The translations under genes were made by a program, and so were the position numbers. Shown here piece by piece: positions 17,170 through 24,155 of a DNA stretch of 64,000 bases; the stretch's first letter is position 1, and every line of letters begins with the position of its first letter. This stretch comes from Acetobacteraceae bacterium. Lineage in GTDB: Bacteria; Pseudomonadota; Alphaproteobacteria; Acetobacterales; Acetobacteraceae. The DNA lies in assembly GCA_027488195.1 (NCBI GenBank), contig JAIYCD010000182.1, forward strand, positions 1 through 64,000, written 5' to 3'. The notes under the pieces are model-generated. The model was not told the DNA's origin and searched no databases. It was given only the letters and a program-made list of their open reading frames with translations.

Positions 17170-18155
17170 GTGGCGAGCGGCGCCAAAGCGGCGGCGTCCC
17201 AGGTGAGGAAGACCTCCGCCCCCGGCTCGGGCAGCGCCGCACCGGCCGGCAGGACAAGGCGCAGGCCCGCCCCCGGGGCTTCCGCCAGCACCACCGCATC
17301 GGCGCCGCGGAAGGCGATCTCCGTCACCACGGCGCGCACGCCGTTCATTTCAGGCAGCCGGTCCGTCATCCGGATGCGCTCCGGGCGCAGCGCATAGGCT
17401 GGTGCATCGACTTCTGCGCTCAGACGGAATCGTCCCGCCTCCAGCACATTGGCCGCGCCCAGGAAGCGCGCGACGGAGCGCGTCGCGGGTCGCTCATAGA
17501 GTTCCCGCGGAGGGGCGACCTGGGCGATGCGCCCCTGCTCCAGCACAGCGACGCGGTCGGCCAGCGAGAGCGCCTCGGCCTGGTCATGCGTGACCATCAC
17601 GAAGCTGGCGCCGAGCCGGCGTTGCAGCGCACGCAATTCGAGACCGGTGCGTTCGCGCAGCCCGGAATCCAGTGCCGCCAGCGGCTCATCCAGCAGCACC
17701 AGCGGCGGCCGGCGGGCCAGCGCGCGGGCCAGCGCCACGCGCTGCTGCTGCCCGCCCGAGAGTTGCTGCGGCCGCCGCGCCTCCAGCCCCGCGAGCCCCA
17801 GCAGCGCGACCAGCTCCGCCACGCGCGGCCCAGGGTCACGATTGCCCGCGCGGCGCAGGCCATAGGCGATGTTCTCGCGCACGCTCATATGAGGAAACAG
17901 CGCATAGGACTGGAACATCATGGCGAGGTCGCGCTCAGGCGGCGCCAGGCGCGTGATGTCGCGGCCTTGCAGCGCGACCCGCCCCGCATCCGCCGCCTCG
18001 AACCCGGCGATCACCCGCAGCAGTGTGGATTTGCCCGAGCCCGAGCCGCCCAGCAGGGCGAAGAACTCACCCGCGCCGATCTGGAGCGAGAGCGCATCCA
18101 GCGCCGTGGTTGCGCCGAAGCGCTTGGTCACGCCCTCGAGCGCGAGCAGCGTCAC
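17166..18155 (-). CDS. potA: Polyamine-type ABC transporter ATP-binding protein (PotA-like)
   Basis: LLGGSGSGKSTLLR, LSGGQQQRVALARAL, VLLDEPLAALD. Confidence 0.92.
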   Translation of the reverse strand: MTLLALEGVTKRFGATTALDALSLQIGAGEFFALLGGSGSGKSTLLRVIAGFEAADAGRVALQGRDITRLAPPERDLAMMFQSYALFPHMSVRENIAYGLRRAGNRDPGPRVAELVALLGLAGLEARRPQQLSGGQQQRVALARALARRPPLVLLDEPLAALDSGLRERTGLELRALQRRLGASFVMVTHDQAEALSLADRVAVLEQGRIAQVAPPRELYERPATRSVARFLGAANVLEAGRFRLSAEVDAPAYALRPERIRMTDRLPEMNGVRAVVTEIAFRGADAVVLAEAPGAGLRLVLPAGAALPEPGAEVFLTWDAAALAPLAT

Positions 18156-19240
18156 CGGCCCGCCTTGAACCGCGCCCAGAGCCGCGCGCGGGCGCGTTCA
18201 CCCGCCTGGGCCGGCGTGCCGGCGACGAAGCTCAGGGCCAAAGTCTCGGACGGCGGGAAGACGCTTGGGTCATTCGCCACCTCAGGCGGCAGCAGCGCAC
18301 GGGAGGCGGGAACGGCATTGGGGTAGCGCACCTGGCGGGTGATTCCAGCCATGATTTCGGGCTGCAGGATGAAGTTGATGAAGGCGTGCGCGGCGTCGGG
18401 GTTCGGCGCATCGGCCGGGATCGCCATCATGTCGAACCAGAGCTGCGCGCCCTCGCGCGGCATCACGTAGGTCACCTCATGCGCGCGGCGGGCTTCACGG
18501 GCACGCGCCGTCGCCTGGATCACATCGCCCGAATAGCTGAAAGCGAGGCAGATCTCCCCCGCCGCCAGCGCGTCGATGATGGCCGGCGGCGATGGGATGG
18601 AGCGCAGGAAGGGACGGATCGCAAGCAGCGCGCGCTGGGCGGCGTCAAGGTCGGCCTGCGCCACGCTGTCGGGGTGGCGGCCCAGATGGCGCAGCACGGA
18701 GGGCAGGACATCCACGGCGCTGTCCATCACCGCGATGCCACAGCGCGCGATGCGCCGCGCATGCTCGGGATTCAGCAGCAGGTCGAGGCTGTCGAGCGGC
18801 GCATCGGGCGCGAGTTCACGGATGCGCGCCGCGTTCATGCCGAGGCCGACGGTGCCCCAGAGATAGATCACGCCATGGCGGTTCCCGGGATCCACCGCCG
18901 CGATCCGCGCCATCAGCGCTGGGTCGAGATTGGCGGCATTGGGCAGCCGCGCGCGGTCCAGCGGGCGCAGCGCGCCGGCGCGGACGAGGCGGTTGAAGGA
19001 AGGCTCGCTGGTCGGAACCACGATGTCATAGCCCGAACGGCCCGCGGATAATTTTCCTTCGAGCGTCTCTAGCGTGTCATAGACGTCGTAGCGCACGCGG
19101 ATCCCCGTCTCGCGCTGGAAGCGCTCGATCGCGTAGGGATCCATGTAGTCCGCCCAGTTGTAGATGTTGATCGTCGGTTGCTGGGCCTGGGCGTTCACGC
19201 CGGCGAGCAGCAGGGCCAGGGTCAGCAGAAATCGGCGCAT
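18152..19240 (-). CDS. Polyamine-type periplasmic substrate-binding protein (PotF/PotD-like)
   Basis: PTINIYNWADYMDPYAIERFQRETGIRVRYDVYDTLETLEGKL; 4-bp overlaps through the operon. Confidence 0.92.
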   Translation of the reverse strand: MRRFLLTLALLLAGVNAQAQQPTINIYNWADYMDPYAIERFQRETGIRVRYDVYDTLETLEGKLSAGRSGYDIVVPTSEPSFNRLVRAGALRPLDRARLPNAANLDPALMARIAAVDPGNRHGVIYLWGTVGLGMNAARIRELAPDAPLDSLDLLLNPEHARRIARCGIAVMDSAVDVLPSVLRHLGRHPDSVAQADLDAAQRALLAIRPFLRSIPSPPAIIDALAAGEICLAFSYSGDVIQATARAREARRAHEVTYVMPREGAQLWFDMMAIPADAPNPDAAHAFINFILQPEIMAGITRQVRYPNAVPASRALLPPEVANDPSVFPPSETLALSFVAGTPAQAGERARARLWARFKAGR

Positions 19241-19314: not shown

Positions 19315-19343
19315 TTGACGTTCCTTCTTTGTTCTCGTAAAGA
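19315..19343 (+). promoter_or_regulatory. Sigma70-like promoter TTGACG-N17-TAAAGA with embedded LexA-type SOS box GTTC-N7-GTTC (19320-19334)
   Basis: TTGACGTTCCTTCTTTGTTCTCGTAAAGA upstream of the tail cassette; motif position between -35 and -10. Confidence 0.7.
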
Positions 19344-19466
19344 AAGCGGGCCAAGGGGTGAATTGCGTCCAGTGCCGCGCCCCGGGCCGCACCCCTCCCT
19401 CCCCTTTCCGATGCACCCGCGCGCCTGCGCGGCTTGCCGCCCTCGTGGCTTAGGAGACGCACGCCC

Positions 19467-20123
19467 ATGCCCTTCATCGCAAGCGACCTCGTGCCGCTGA
19501 TCCAGACCGCGCGCTTCAATCTCTGGCACTATCGCAGCGCGGATCTTCAGGCCGCCATCACCACGGCCGGCTATTTCAGCCCCGCCGCCGCCACGCTCCG
19601 CGCCGGCGACCTCATGATCGTGCAGTCGGCCGATGCCATGGCCATGCTGCCGGTCCGCAGCAACGCCATCACGGGCCCCGGCGTCGTGCTCGATGGCGCG
19701 GTGGCGCCGATCGCGCTCACGCGCTCGATCGCACAGACACTGCGCATGGTGCAGGCGGCGGGCGCCGTCGTCTCCACCATCATCCTCGCTCCCCTCATGG
19801 CCGGCATCATCGTCGGCACCTCCATCCCGGTGCAGGCGCAGGTGACGGGGCCGATCCAGCAGGTGGTGATCACCGTCCGCGATGCGCAGAACCAGATCAT
19901 CCCGCCCGCGGTACTGGCCAATGTGGACCAGGGCTACGTGACCGTCGCACTGCCCACGCCCGCCGTCGGCAACGGCTACCGTATCCGCATCGAGGATGCG
20001 CTCGACACCGGCGTCGTCGCCACCTCGCGCAGCTTCAATATCCTGCCCGACCTCCGGCTCATCCTGACCGAGGACGGCATGAAGCTGCTGCAGGAGGACG
20101 GCTCCGCCATCTCGCAGGGCTGA
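19467..20123 (+). CDS. Phage tail/fibre-associated protein (hypothetical)
   Basis: LWHYRSADLQAAITTAGYFSPAAATLRAGDLMIVQSADAMAM resembles N-terminal regions of phage tail-fibre proteins; ATG 19467; in tail cassette. Confidence 0.6.
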   Translation: MPFIASDLVPLIQTARFNLWHYRSADLQAAITTAGYFSPAAATLRAGDLMIVQSADAMAMLPVRSNAITGPGVVLDGAVAPIALTRSIAQTLRMVQAAGAVVSTIILAPLMAGIIVGTSIPVQAQVTGPIQQVVITVRDAQNQIIPPAVLANVDQGYVTVALPTPAVGNGYRIRIEDALDTGVVATSRSFNILPDLRLILTEDGMKLLQEDGSAISQG

Positions 20124-20169
20124 GCCGCAGCGCCGCCTCCCTCTTTTCCTCCAGACCGGACGGAGCCCC

Positions 20170-22611
20170 ATGCCCGACCTCAAGATCAGTGAATTGCCCG
20201 CGGCGACCGCCGTCGCGGATGCCGACCTCACGCCCTTCGTACAGACCTCGCCCACGCCGGGGACGCGGCGCGCCACCCTCTCGCAGATGCGGCGCGCCGT
20301 GCTGGCCGACCGCGGCGTGGACGTGCGCGACTTCGGCGCCGTCGGCAACGGCAGCACCAACGATGCCCCCGCCATCCAGGCGGCCATCAACGCACTCGGT
20401 ACGGGGGGCGGCACGGTCCAGTTTGGGCCGCGCACATATCGCATCGGCTCGGCGATCGTCATCAACAGCAACTCGGTCCGGCTCCAGGGCGCGGGATTCA
20501 CCGAGGGCGGCGGTCCCGGCCAGGGCACCTGGATGACGGTGGATCTGACGGGATTCACGCCCTTCACCTTCACGGGCGTCTCCGCCCGTGGCTCCGTCGT
20601 GCGGGACATCGCCTTCCGGCAGAGCCACACGGCGGCGCTCAATGCCTCCTGGGCGCCCACCAACTACGACTACCTGTTCCGCGTGACAGACTGCCTGGGC
20701 GGCGTGGATTTCGACAACGTCATGCTCTCCGGCATCAATCGCGGCATCTTCGTCCGCAACTCCGGGCGCACCGATTTCCGGCGCATCCGCGGCCAGGTTT
20801 TCACGACGGGCATCGAGATCGACGAGGGCTACGACACCTCGCGCATCATGAATGTGCATCTCTGGCCCTTCTGGTCGGCCGACAACAACGTGGTTCGCTG
20901 GCAGCAGGCCAATGGCGACGCCATGGTCTTCCGCCGTTGCGACGGCGTCTTCGTGGACCAGGCCTTCGCGCTTGGCTATCGCTCGATGTTCCGCTTCACC
21001 TCCTCGGCCGCCGGCTTCACGCAGAAGTTCAGCATCGGGCAGGCTTATGCTGATTTCGTGCGGCACGGCATCTGGATCGACGCGGAGGGCACCGACGGAC
21101 AGGTGGATGCCATGACCGTCCAGTGCGAGATCTTCAACGCGGGCGGCGCGCCGCTGCCCGGCTCCATCGGCATATACGTCAACACCAACCTCAGCCGCGT
21201 ACAGATCGGCACGCTGCGGATCGACGATGCGGAGGACAACCCGATCCGCATCGAGGGCGCGGGCAACCGATTGGATGTCGGCGCCTTGCGTTGCGTGAAC
21301 TTCAACCTGCGCAACAATGGCGCGGCGGCCGTTCACCTCGCGAATGTGGTGAGCGGCACGCCGAACCGCGTGAATCTCGCCAGCCCGCCCCTGCTGGAGA
21401 CGGCGAATGTCGGGCCTGTCTTCAATGCAGGCAGTAACGGCTCCGTCGGCCTCCAGGCGCCGGCAGGCGAGGCGGCGCGACCGGGCCTCTCCATCGCGCA
21501 GACCGATACCGGCCTCTTTCTGCCAGCGGCGGGCAGCCTCGGCGTCAGCGCGGCCGGCGCGGAACTTGCGCGGCTGGCGAGCGGCACGGCAAGCCTCGGC
21601 GCGGCCAGTGGCGCCCACGGGCTCGAGGTGACGACGCCCGCCAGCACGGTGAACCGACCGGAGATGGTCGGCGGTGTCACCGGCACGCCAGCGCGGACCG
21701 GATGGCGCGCAAAGGGTGCCGACGCGAACATCTCCGCCGTCATGCAGCCCAAGGGCACCGGCGCCGTGCTGGCGCAGTTCCCCGACAGCGCGGCGGCGGG
21801 GGGAAATGCGCGCGGCGCCAATGCCGTTGACTTCCAGACCTCCCGCGCTTCGGCCTCCCAGGTAGCGAGCGGGGCGAATAGCGTCGTCGCGGGCGGGTTG
21901 AACAATACCGCCAGCGGCTCGGGTTCGGTGGTGGCGGGCGGGACGAACAATACGGCCAGCGGCAATAACTCGTTCGTCGGCGGCGGCGGCAATTCCAACG
22001 TCGCCAGCGGCATCCGTGCGGTGGTTGTTGGTGGCAATGCCAACACCGCCAGCGGGCAGGATGCGACTGTTGCCGGTGGCGATAGCAACACGGCGGGAGG
22101 CACGCGATCCTGGGTGCCCGGCGGCGGCCAGGCCACCACGCGCGGCATTCACGGCCGGGGCGCATGGTCGGGTGGGCAGCTTGCCGCGCCGGGCGACGCC
22201 CAATGCGGCGAGCATCACATCTTCCGGCAGTCCACCAGCGCGATCTCTCAGAACCTGACCGCGAACGGGGCGGGACCTACCGCCTCGACCATCATCGCGC
22301 TGCCCAACTTCGCGGCCTATGCGGGGACGCTCACGGTCGTCGCCAAGGCGGCGGGCAGCACGGCGAGTGCGACATGGCGCGTCAATGTGTCGGCCGCGCG
22401 CGGAAACGGCGCGGCGACGGCGGTTGTCTATGAGGGAACAGTCACGGCCCTGGCCCCCTCAGCCAGCAACGGCGCCGGCAGCACTTGGACCATCAACGTG
22501 TTCGCCGACACCACCAATGGCGGCATCGCCGTAACCGTCACGGGAGCAGCCGCCACCACCATCAACTGGTCCGCGCGCTTCGCCGATGTCGAAGCGACGA
22601 CCGCGAGCTGA
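20170..22611 (+). CDS. Phage-type tailspike: pectate-lyase-like beta-helix plus YadA-head-like repeats
   Basis: VDVRDFGAVGNGSTNDAPAIQAAINALGTGGGTVQFGPRTYRIGSAI, typical of Pectate_lyase_3 proteins; repeats VASGANSVVAGGLNN/TASGSGSVVAGGTNN... Confidence 0.85.
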   Translation: MPDLKISELPAATAVADADLTPFVQTSPTPGTRRATLSQMRRAVLADRGVDVRDFGAVGNGSTNDAPAIQAAINALGTGGGTVQFGPRTYRIGSAIVINSNSVRLQGAGFTEGGGPGQGTWMTVDLTGFTPFTFTGVSARGSVVRDIAFRQSHTAALNASWAPTNYDYLFRVTDCLGGVDFDNVMLSGINRGIFVRNSGRTDFRRIRGQVFTTGIEIDEGYDTSRIMNVHLWPFWSADNNVVRWQQANGDAMVFRRCDGVFVDQAFALGYRSMFRFTSSAAGFTQKFSIGQAYADFVRHGIWIDAEGTDGQVDAMTVQCEIFNAGGAPLPGSIGIYVNTNLSRVQIGTLRIDDAEDNPIRIEGAGNRLDVGALRCVNFNLRNNGAAAVHLANVVSGTPNRVNLASPPLLETANVGPVFNAGSNGSVGLQAPAGEAARPGLSIAQTDTGLFLPAAGSLGVSAAGAELARLASGTASLGAASGAHGLEVTTPASTVNRPEMVGGVTGTPARTGWRAKGADANISAVMQPKGTGAVLAQFPDSAAAGGNARGANAVDFQTSRASASQVASGANSVVAGGLNNTASGSGSVVAGGTNNTASGNNSFVGGGGNSNVASGIRAVVVGGNANTASGQDATVAGGDSNTAGGTRSWVPGGGQATTRGIHGRGAWSGGQLAAPGDAQCGEHHIFRQSTSAISQNLTANGAGPTASTIIALPNFAAYAGTLTVVAKAAGSTASATWRVNVSAARGNGAATAVVYEGTVTALAPSASNGAGSTWTINVFADTTNGGIAVTVTGAAATTINWSARFADVEATTAS
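21862..22140 (+). repeat. About six tandem ~15-aa repeats, YadA-head-like
   Basis: VASGANSVVAGGLNN / TASGSGSVVAGGTNN / TASGNNSFVGGGGNSN / VASGIRAVVVGGNAN / TASGQDATVAGGDSN / TAGGTRSWVPGGGQA. Confidence 0.8.
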
Positions 22612-22626
22612 TCACAGGAGAATCCC

Positions 22627-22926
22627 ATGGCTTTCCTCATCCCGATCGAGATCAACGATACCGGCGCCTTCGCGAATTACTGGCGCCTGACGCATGTGCA
22701 GGTGGACCGCATCGCGGGCATCGTCGAGGCGCAGCTGCATGGTTACCGCGACGAGGGAGCGAGGCGCAGCGGCAAGGCGCCGCTGCAGCGCATGAACTTC
22801 CGCTTCGACCAGGCGACGATGGAAGACCCCTACACCCTCGCGGTCGAAGATCTCTACCGCGCCATCCGTCTGCAGCCGGAGGGCGAAGGCGTCCCTTCGC
22901 GCTTCGCCACCGCCACCGACATCTGA
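22627..22926 (+). CDS. Hypothetical protein in tail cassette
   Basis: RBS caggag 5' of ATG; tightly packed between cassette genes; no family recognised. Confidence 0.65.
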   Translation: MAFLIPIEINDTGAFANYWRLTHVQVDRIAGIVEAQLHGYRDEGARRSGKAPLQRMNFRFDQATMEDPYTLAVEDLYRAIRLQPEGEGVPSRFATATDI

Positions 22927-22948
22927 CCTCCAGCGAAAGGATCCGCCC

Positions 22949-23323
22949 ATGAGCTCTCTCACCGATTACGCGAAGAACATCCTCACGCGCGCGCTCTGCG
23001 GCCGCGCGCCCGTCCTGCCCACGGCCGTCTTCCTCGGCCTCGGCACCGGCGGCAGCGATCCCACCGGGATCAGCGGGGAGGCGTTGGGCAATGGCTATGC
23101 CCGCCAGCGCGTCACCTTCACGGGCACCGGCGTGCAACAGAACGCGGAGGCGGTGCGCTTCACCTTCACCGCGGCCGCGGGCAGCTTCTCGCATGTGGGG
23201 CTGTTCGATGCCGCGGCTGGCGGCAATGCCCTGACCTGGTCGCCCTTGACCACGCCCGTGGCCATCGCCGGGCCCGGAACGGTCACGATCAACCCGGGCG
23301 CCTTCACCATGACGGGCGACTGA
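22949..23323 (+). CDS. Phage tail-fibre-like protein
   Basis: LTDYAKNILTRALCGRAPVLPTAVFLGLGTGGSDPTG...FSHVGLFDAAAGGNAL resembles small phage tail-associated proteins. Confidence 0.7.
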   Translation: MSSLTDYAKNILTRALCGRAPVLPTAVFLGLGTGGSDPTGISGEALGNGYARQRVTFTGTGVQQNAEAVRFTFTAAAGSFSHVGLFDAAAGGNALTWSPLTTPVAIAGPGTVTINPGAFTMTGD

Positions 23324-23414: not shown

Positions 23415-24155
23415 GTGAACCCGCTCGACACCACCCACATGCTGGTCCTGGACACCGAGGCCCGAGAACCGTGCGCGACCTGCGGGAGCCGCGTGGCAGG
23501 CCTCTGCCACAAGCTCGATGCCTCGGCGCTCGATGACATCTCCGCCGACTCTCAGCGCTTCCACCTGGGCGCGAAAAGTGCGCTCTTCCGCGAGGGCGAT
23601 CCCGCCCTGCGCGCCTATTCCATCGTCGAGGGCGTGGTGAAGCTCTCGCGCCTGCTGCCGGACGGCAAGCAGCAGGTCGTGGGATTCCGCTTCGCGGGCG
23701 ACATCCTCGGCTATGGTTCGGGCCGGACCTACCCCTTCGATGCGGAGACGCTGACCCACGGGCATTTCTGCCGGATCGAACGCAGCCGGCTCGACTCGCT
23801 GCTGCGCCTTTATCCCCAGATGGAACGGCGCATGCTGGACCTCTGCCTGCGGGAATTGTCGAATACGCAGGACCAACTCGTCTCGGTCGGCCGTCGCTCG
23901 GCCGAGGCGCGGGTGGCGAGCTTCCTGATCGGCCTGGCCGATGCCTATCGCCAGCGCGGACCGCTCCCAGCGGAATTGCCCATGCCGATGACCCGCAGCG
24001 ATATCGGCGATTTCCTGGGCCTGACGCTGGAGACGGTGAGCCGCAGCTTCGCCGCCTTCAAACGGCAGAACCTCATCACCGAACCGGGGCACCAGACGGT
24101 GCGGATCCTCGACATGACCGCCCTGCTGCGGCTGACCGAGGGCGATACCGCGTGA
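23415..24155 (+). CDS. Crp/Fnr family regulator with FNR-type cysteine set
   Basis: CATCGSRVAGLC N-terminal cluster plus HFCRIERS; HTH TRSDIGDFLGLTLETVSRSFAAFKRQNLI. Confidence 0.9.
   Translation: MNPLDTTHMLVLDTEAREPCATCGSRVAGLCHKLDASALDDISADSQRFHLGAKSALFREGDPALRAYSIVEGVVKLSRLLPDGKQQVVGFRFAGDILGYGSGRTYPFDAETLTHGHFCRIERSRLDSLLRLYPQMERRMLDLCLRELSNTQDQLVSVGRRSAEARVASFLIGLADAYRQRGPLPAELPMPMTRSDIGDFLGLTLETVSRSFAAFKRQNLITEPGHQTVRILDMTALLRLTEGDTA

Follow-up and report, generated by a model that had tools for sequence, protein, structure and literature searches.

A fibre-gene cassette with a LexA-type promoter box as the probable receptor-binding module of an unlinked, podovirus-type and GTA-like virion cluster in Acetobacteraceae

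A conserved four-gene cassette at a fixed chromosomal site

Here we describe a stretch of 64,000 nucleotides of Acetobacteraceae DNA (positions 1 to 64,000 of contig JAIYCD010000182.1, assembly GCA_027488195.1; hereafter the window) in which four co-directional genes, A to D (19467-23323), lie between potF and an fnr-type regulator gene (Table 1). A preliminary description, made from the letters alone, had called this arrangement a tailspike cassette: four phage tail genes between ordinary chromosomal genes, behind a TTGACG-N17-TAAAGA promoter with GTTC-N7-GTTC between its hexamers, and possibly a satellite receptor-binding module for a gene transfer agent (GTA), a tailocin or a prophage encoded elsewhere. 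We find the promoter at the coordinates given, with the G of the first GTTC doubling as the last base of the -35 hexamer, and the four open reading frames and their chromosomal flanks are as described. Tail character is proven for B and D only; A and C match PHROGs without assigned function, and a capsid-adjacent virion protein is the better reading of A. B is indeed a pectate-lyase-like spike, but the module as a whole probably serves head fibres or decoration.

The cassette is under purifying selection, and its site is the same in most species of the genus and in further genera. Gene D has matches in 27 of 60 relatives searched. Each of the 20 sampled congeners is among the 27, although contig ends or decay leave some matches incomplete. 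The order pot operon-A-B-C-D-fnr is retained in most congeners and, judged from 20-kb stretches, largely in three other Acetobacteraceae genera (G035, G031 and G023; G numbers are our genome handles, L numbers our locus handles), with a partial copy at a contig end in a fourth (G025). The ratio of nonsynonymous to synonymous substitution rates (dN/dS) is about 0.05-0.18 for A, C and D (0.06-0.18 for C in congeners) and about 0.2 for B, and most genes of this locus and of the second locus described below lie at 0.05-0.25. GC and third-position GC (GC3) of the cassette equal those of neighbouring genes. Within B, identity falls from about 0.8 in residues 1-450 to about 0.5 in the tip (residues 551-813); this most variable part is where a receptor-binding end would be expected. 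The possibility, raised in the preliminary description, that the cassette is one end of a degraded prophage lacking conservation in relatives is excluded by this conservation and by the co-occurrence reported below.

Table 1. Features of the cassette locus, in positions of the window
Feature	Position	Strand	Remarks
Promoter	19315..19343	+	TTGACG 19315-19320, 17-bp spacer, TAAAGA 19338-19343; equal geometry at both loci in relatives
LexA-type box	19320..19334	+	GTTC-CTTCTTT-GTTC, inside promoter; half-sites GTTC 19320-19323 and GTTC 19331-19334
Shared leader element	19350..19370	+	GCCAAGGGGTGAATTGCGTCC; initially transcribed region; pattern match to second locus
Gene A, 218 aa	19467..20123	+	N-terminal ~80 aa homologous to capsid-adjacent small protein; C-terminal immunoglobulin (Ig)-like domain; putative fibre base
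Gene B, 813 aa	20170..22611	+	Fibre/spike; pectate-lyase-like beta-helix, UspA1/YadA-head-type repeats, variable tip
Gene C, 99 aa	22627..22926	+	phrog_5084, a PHROG without assigned function
Gene D, 124 aa	22949..23323	+	PF23140 (podophage GP4 gp80 'fibre I' type) / phrog_240
potF	18152..19240	-	Spermidine/putrescine-binding; chromosomal left flank, conserved neighbour
fnr/fixK-type gene	23415..24155	+	FixK/FnrL-type regulator; chromosomal right flank, conserved neighbour

An unlinked virion cluster with the same promoter and leader

The partner of the cassette was found through its leader. Downstream of the -10 hexamer lies an element, GCCAAGGGGYGAATTGCGYCC, which a pattern search of 25 genomes recovered in 15 congeners, the reversed control giving one match in the same 25. 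Other copies in the genus stand mostly 5' of a podovirus-type virion cluster, where a TTGAC promoter is followed by the same element, 36-39 bases from the start of the -35, and then by a podovirus-type portal gene. The head/tail cluster for which a genome search had been proposed therefore exists, at an unlinked site. As a class-wide marker the leader was rejected: 24 of 389 class genomes contain its exact form GGGCGAATTGCGYCC and a handful match the reversed control, and this form is not generally tied to the cluster. The leader could also form a 5-bp hairpin (GGGTG/CGTCC, 19356-19370) whose pairs mostly fit among relatives; covariation is weak beyond relatedness, and we therefore treat the leader as a conserved motif only.

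The virion cluster spans ~13 kb at a fixed chromosomal site. It opens with an S24 repressor gene of CI/LexA type, which diverges from two small genes, smA and smB; these are followed by the promoter and leader in common with the cassette and by p75. Next come the portal (PF12236), scaffold, major capsid protein (PF19821), tail tubes A (phrog_394) and B (phrog_376), an internal virion protein (phrog_418), a fibre combining a T7-tail-fibre-N domain with a pectate lyase, a TerS candidate and TerL (phrog_38). At the end lie a small phrog_29007 protein in the holin position and a 165-aa hydrolase, a lysis candidate that we labelled SleB by eye, the label having no profile match behind it. Capsid, portal and TerL are conserved. 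Pfam searches of two complete genomes identify ordinary flanking genes (GST, DUF952, EamA, DctM, LPG synthase and lysyl-tRNA synthetase), and the DUF952 neighbour is common to 12 congeners and three other genera. No integrase was seen at or beside the cluster in 20-kb windows or in these flanks, nor did the 20-kb windows hold replication or integration genes alongside the structural and lysis-like ones. In G008 (L098/L099, joined at ~20730-21919), the one genome looked at for it, an open reading frame resembling a nickel/cobalt transporter, assigned by eye, lies between TerL and the lysis-like genes.

Protein A as a displaced neighbour of the capsid

The first ~80 residues of A match, by family profile, a small protein encoded directly 3' of the capsid gene, and both proteins match phrog_18004. 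A gene for this A-domain directly follows the capsid gene at 79 of 80 gut-alphaproteobacterial loci and at 19 of 20 class-wide loci, and the lytic Pelagibacter podophage Hodr has the order capsid, A-domain protein, tail tube A. No such gene follows the capsid gene in 80 close IMG/VR relatives or in the Acetobacteraceae clusters examined (the genus and four further genera). In G081, a family member that has a capsid and lacks D, the capsid gene is followed by the A-domain gene, and five others have A-domain genes at an unlinked site. In three family members lacking D (G086, G131 and G212; L399-L401) A-domain genes form a tandem pair at an unlinked site, and some of them contain in-frame stops; this suggests an alternative fibre module. 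A fold search with A returned generic Ig-like matches only, plus a capsid chain of phage LME-1 (E 6e-3).

Homology and gene order suggest that A is the protein that neighbours the capsid in this lineage, transferred to another site and lengthened by an Ig-like domain. Because the A-domain adjoins the capsid in other clusters and in Hodr and not in the clusters of this family, the cassette is probably a relocated receptor-binding module, and probably one for head fibres or decoration. The best analogy for A is the RcGTA head spike, in which a fibre joins a base attached to the capsid and whose genes lie apart from the main cluster (PMC10218006).

Joint inheritance of the two loci

Capsid and gene D were scored in 220 Acetobacteraceae genomes, all at least 90% complete except the window's own (88%), taking E<1e-100 as a strong capsid match and E<1e-30 as a strong D match. 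Both were present in 54 genomes and neither in 158, with capsid only in 6 and D only in 2 (Fisher p 7e-42, a value inflated by relatedness). In complete genomes the loci are 165 kb (G016), 293 kb (G006) and 894 kb (G004) apart. Protein distances track those of host potF closely for A (Mantel r=0.93), D (0.92), portal (0.91) and major capsid protein (0.82), and tail tube B falls within the same range (0.82-0.93); TerL correlates weakly (r 0.34) in a set that included a truncated TerL from G017. Fixed sites, co-occurrence and host-like distances thus describe vertical inheritance with the host.

A LexA-type box at both loci

In the window's genome GTTC-N7-GTTC also occurs 5' of recA, between uvrA and ssb, at radA and at a gyrB/parE-type gene, and is therefore a LexA box in this genome. 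At the cassette both GTTC half-sites are invariant and the N7 spacer varies across seven relatives (G016, G015, G009, G006, G005, G001 and G008), so we regard the box as real; G013 has it too. Since it is located in a promoter and the same motif marks recA and uvrA, the cassette very likely carries a LexA operator and would belong to the SOS regulon, as the preliminary description had supposed. The search for further GTTC-N7-GTTC promoters that it had proposed yielded, besides these SOS genes, smA: at the virion locus the box overlaps the -10/start region of that gene. Among 13 congeners with both promoters, eight have boxes at both loci (G013 included), four at neither, and one (G017) is mismatched, its cassette box being off by one base.

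In 22 of 22 sequences the S24 repressor has retained the Ala-Gly, Ser and Lys positions found in cleavable LexA/CI proteins. SmA is an all-helical protein. We tried it as a GafA/DUF6456 protein and as a Q protein and found no Pfam or PHROG match; phage-21 Q appeared among insignificant Foldseek hits (E 4.5-9.5), which we take as a lead only. By their position SmA and SmB may be viewed as resembling GafY/GafZ or a phage Q antiterminator.

Interpretation and alternatives

Based on gene content, homology, co-occurrence, fixed sites, selection and shared regulatory elements, all read from the sequence, we suggest that two unlinked loci, both inherited vertically, encode a domesticated podovirus-type particle and that the cassette is its receptor-binding module, probably for head fibres; we give this reading a probability of roughly 0.7. 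The head, tail and packaging genes of the element are chromosomal and derive from a phage; the element is inherited with its host and appears to be dispersed over several loci that share a promoter, a leader and a LexA-type box; on this genomic evidence it may be described as GTA-like. The satellite module proposed at the outset would accordingly have its partner, though of a different kind from two of those envisaged: the partner cluster is not of the RcGTA type, and its capsid, portal and TerL set aside a tailocin.

From these observations we infer how the particle may be induced, what SmA and SmB may do, where A to D may sit, and that host DNA may be packaged and transferred. The particle genes look as though they are switched on by DNA damage. 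LexA would repress smA-smB and the cassette; damage would free both from LexA and probably also lead to cleavage of the S24 repressor; SmA and SmB would then act through the common promoter-leader at both loci, in the manner of GafY/GafZ or of a Q-type antiterminator. Particles would assemble, package DNA and exit by lysis. In them A would bring the capsid-adjacent domain and an Ig-like arm, B would be a polysaccharide-type fibre that D, and perhaps C, helps to anchor, and the cassette fibres would attach to surface glycans of relatives.

Several findings count against this interpretation. Parts have been lost in some species: G011 has no portal or capsid match, the portal of G012 (virion loci L391/L392) is broken, the cassette of G013 is decayed, and G017 (L140) is without tail tube B, internal protein and fibre and has a truncated TerL. 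TerL lies beyond the contig end in the window's own assembly. SmA and SmB matched no known regulator in Pfam or PHROG. The boxes are absent from both loci in G003, G004, G010 and G019, and LexA control is therefore not universal. In G013 (L102:6148-7000) the virion cluster is intact, A is frameshifted, B and C are gone and D is broken, and the promoter, box and leader of the decayed cassette are still intact.

Of the alternatives, the one that fares best, though still unlikely, is a particle made for something other than DNA transfer, such as a lysis weapon, a decoy, or a helper-type supply of structural parts to another mobile element. Retention of structural and lysis-like genes without those for replication or integration would suit it. 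An empty killing device, however, would need no TerL, and here the TerL Walker motifs and most of its nuclease motifs are intact and portal and scaffold are conserved; moreover, no satellite or toxin gene was seen within about 3 kb either side of either locus.

Slightly less credible is that both loci are slowly decaying, functionless remnants of one old prophage, split by rearrangement and kept by chance. The broken or missing parts in G011, G012, G013 and G017 are what such decay would leave, but nearly all genes at both loci are under purifying selection, the two unlinked loci are retained concordantly across genera, promoter, leader and box are conserved while the box spacer varies, and the capsid lineage persists in genomes of about 0.9 Mb.

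We consider it improbable that GTTC-N7-GTTC is coincidental and the cassette outside LexA control. The motif occurs once in the window against 1.04 expected by chance, and because one site per 64 kb is expected, statistics of the window alone are insufficient; the box is also missing in some relatives. Yet only 0.004 would be expected in the 226-bp gap between potF and A, and the fixed half-sites with a varying N7, the boxes at recA, uvrA/ssb, radA, parE and smA, and the agreement between the two loci in whether a box is present all speak for an operator.

An active temperate or plasmid-like podophage with early genes elsewhere would account for a CI/LexA-type repressor adjoining late genes and for a capsid lineage common to real podophages, but it is the least probable of the four, given fixed sites with ordinary flanks across genera, host-like distances, no close match on plasmids, and the 80 best IMG/VR contigs being at most 16.2 kb long and holding only this cluster.

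Comparison with known systems

To our knowledge, the GTAs of Alphaproteobacteria are of the RcGTA/CcGTA and BaGTA types. We found no Acetobacteraceae or Roseomonas GTA in full-text searches of the open-access literature. Its intact packaging genes suggest that the element packages DNA; if so, it would be a kind of gene-transfer particle not recognised before in Alphaproteobacteria, and its two-locus layout, common leader and LexA-type box make the GTA question directly testable.

RcGTA and CcGTA (type I) also encode head spikes and tail fibres away from the main cluster (PMC10218006; PMC9638019), and an S24-type repressor, RogA, and a two-protein activator, GafY/GafZ, coordinate their main and accessory loci (PMC9632790, PMC11150451). 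Detached spike or fibre genes, an S24 repressor and a candidate two-protein activator are thus common ground. Those agents, however, are siphovirus-type with GTA_TIM, whereas portal, TerL and tail tubes here are of T7/podovirus type; the repressor here keeps its cleavage residues while RogA is reported without key ones (PMC9632790); and SmA/SmB have no detected GafA match. An RcGTA-type (Rhodogtaviriformidae) partner was rejected, GTA_TIM (PF13547) being absent in G000-G024 and present in other class members.

BaGTA of Bartonella (type II) derives from a phage and is inherited vertically, as a cluster of about 14 kb that includes portal, TerL and capsid genes (PMC9662315, PMC3610622); the cluster here is similar in these respects and differs in gene order. 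A BaGTA-type (Bartogtaviriformidae) partner was rejected because no virion or TerL protein matched Sulfitobacter phage pCB2047-C, a proxy whose TerL groups with BaGTA.

A similar layout is that of FpGTA from Faecalibacterium, a Firmicute, which the full-text searches gave as the first podovirus-like GTA-like element (PMC12946183, 2026). As described there, a capsid/terminase operon is likewise accompanied by a separate fibre/receptor-binding operon, about 125 kb away. Its lysis genes go with the fibre operon, those here with the capsid operon, and the parts of its report covered here mention no LexA box or common leader (PMC12946183). Particles and ~9-kb packaged DNA are shown for FpGTA (PMC12946183), and the element here is known from its genes; the two are likened by description.

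Among phages, Pelagibacter phage EXVC031P Hodr and HTVC010P-type podophages have homologous portal, scaffold, capsid and both tail tubes, together with an A-domain protein after the capsid. Hodr is a complete 34-kb phage genome with a capsid 47% identical, and in phages of this type we saw neither a separate fibre cassette nor a LexA-type box. Prophages of the phiGT1 type carry a P22-derived module (PMC10386132).

Distribution of the capsid lineage

At E<1e-100 the capsid has matches in about 64 of 389 class genomes (about one in six), across dozens of families and including genomes of ~0.9 Mb. At least 580 loci in genome_contigs carry it; the best 80, chosen for likeness to a gut relative, are mostly from gut Alphaproteobacteria. 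Some of these gut loci (L187, L191, L193 and L201) have a rearranged order: S24, SleB-like, scaffold, capsid, and further on TerL and then portal. Some may be true phages and not domesticated clusters and, because gene order varies in gut lineages, copies outside Acetobacteraceae may be of either sort. We regard it as an even bet that a class-wide family of podovirus-type GTAs exists in Alphaproteobacteria, with a CI/LexA-type repressor, an SmA/SmB activator pair and a common promoter-leader, from which Acetobacteraceae split the capsid-fibre module to a second locus and, in part of the family, brought both loci under LexA. If even part of this capsid lineage works as a GTA, gene exchange in Alphaproteobacteria is undercounted.

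Two contigs of the window's assembly (L095 = G000:C297 and L135 = G000:C345) each carry a copy of the virion locus; the copies differ, and each has a capsid 85-86% identical to that of G008. Given these two copies and 6.45% contamination, the assembly is probably a strain mixture.

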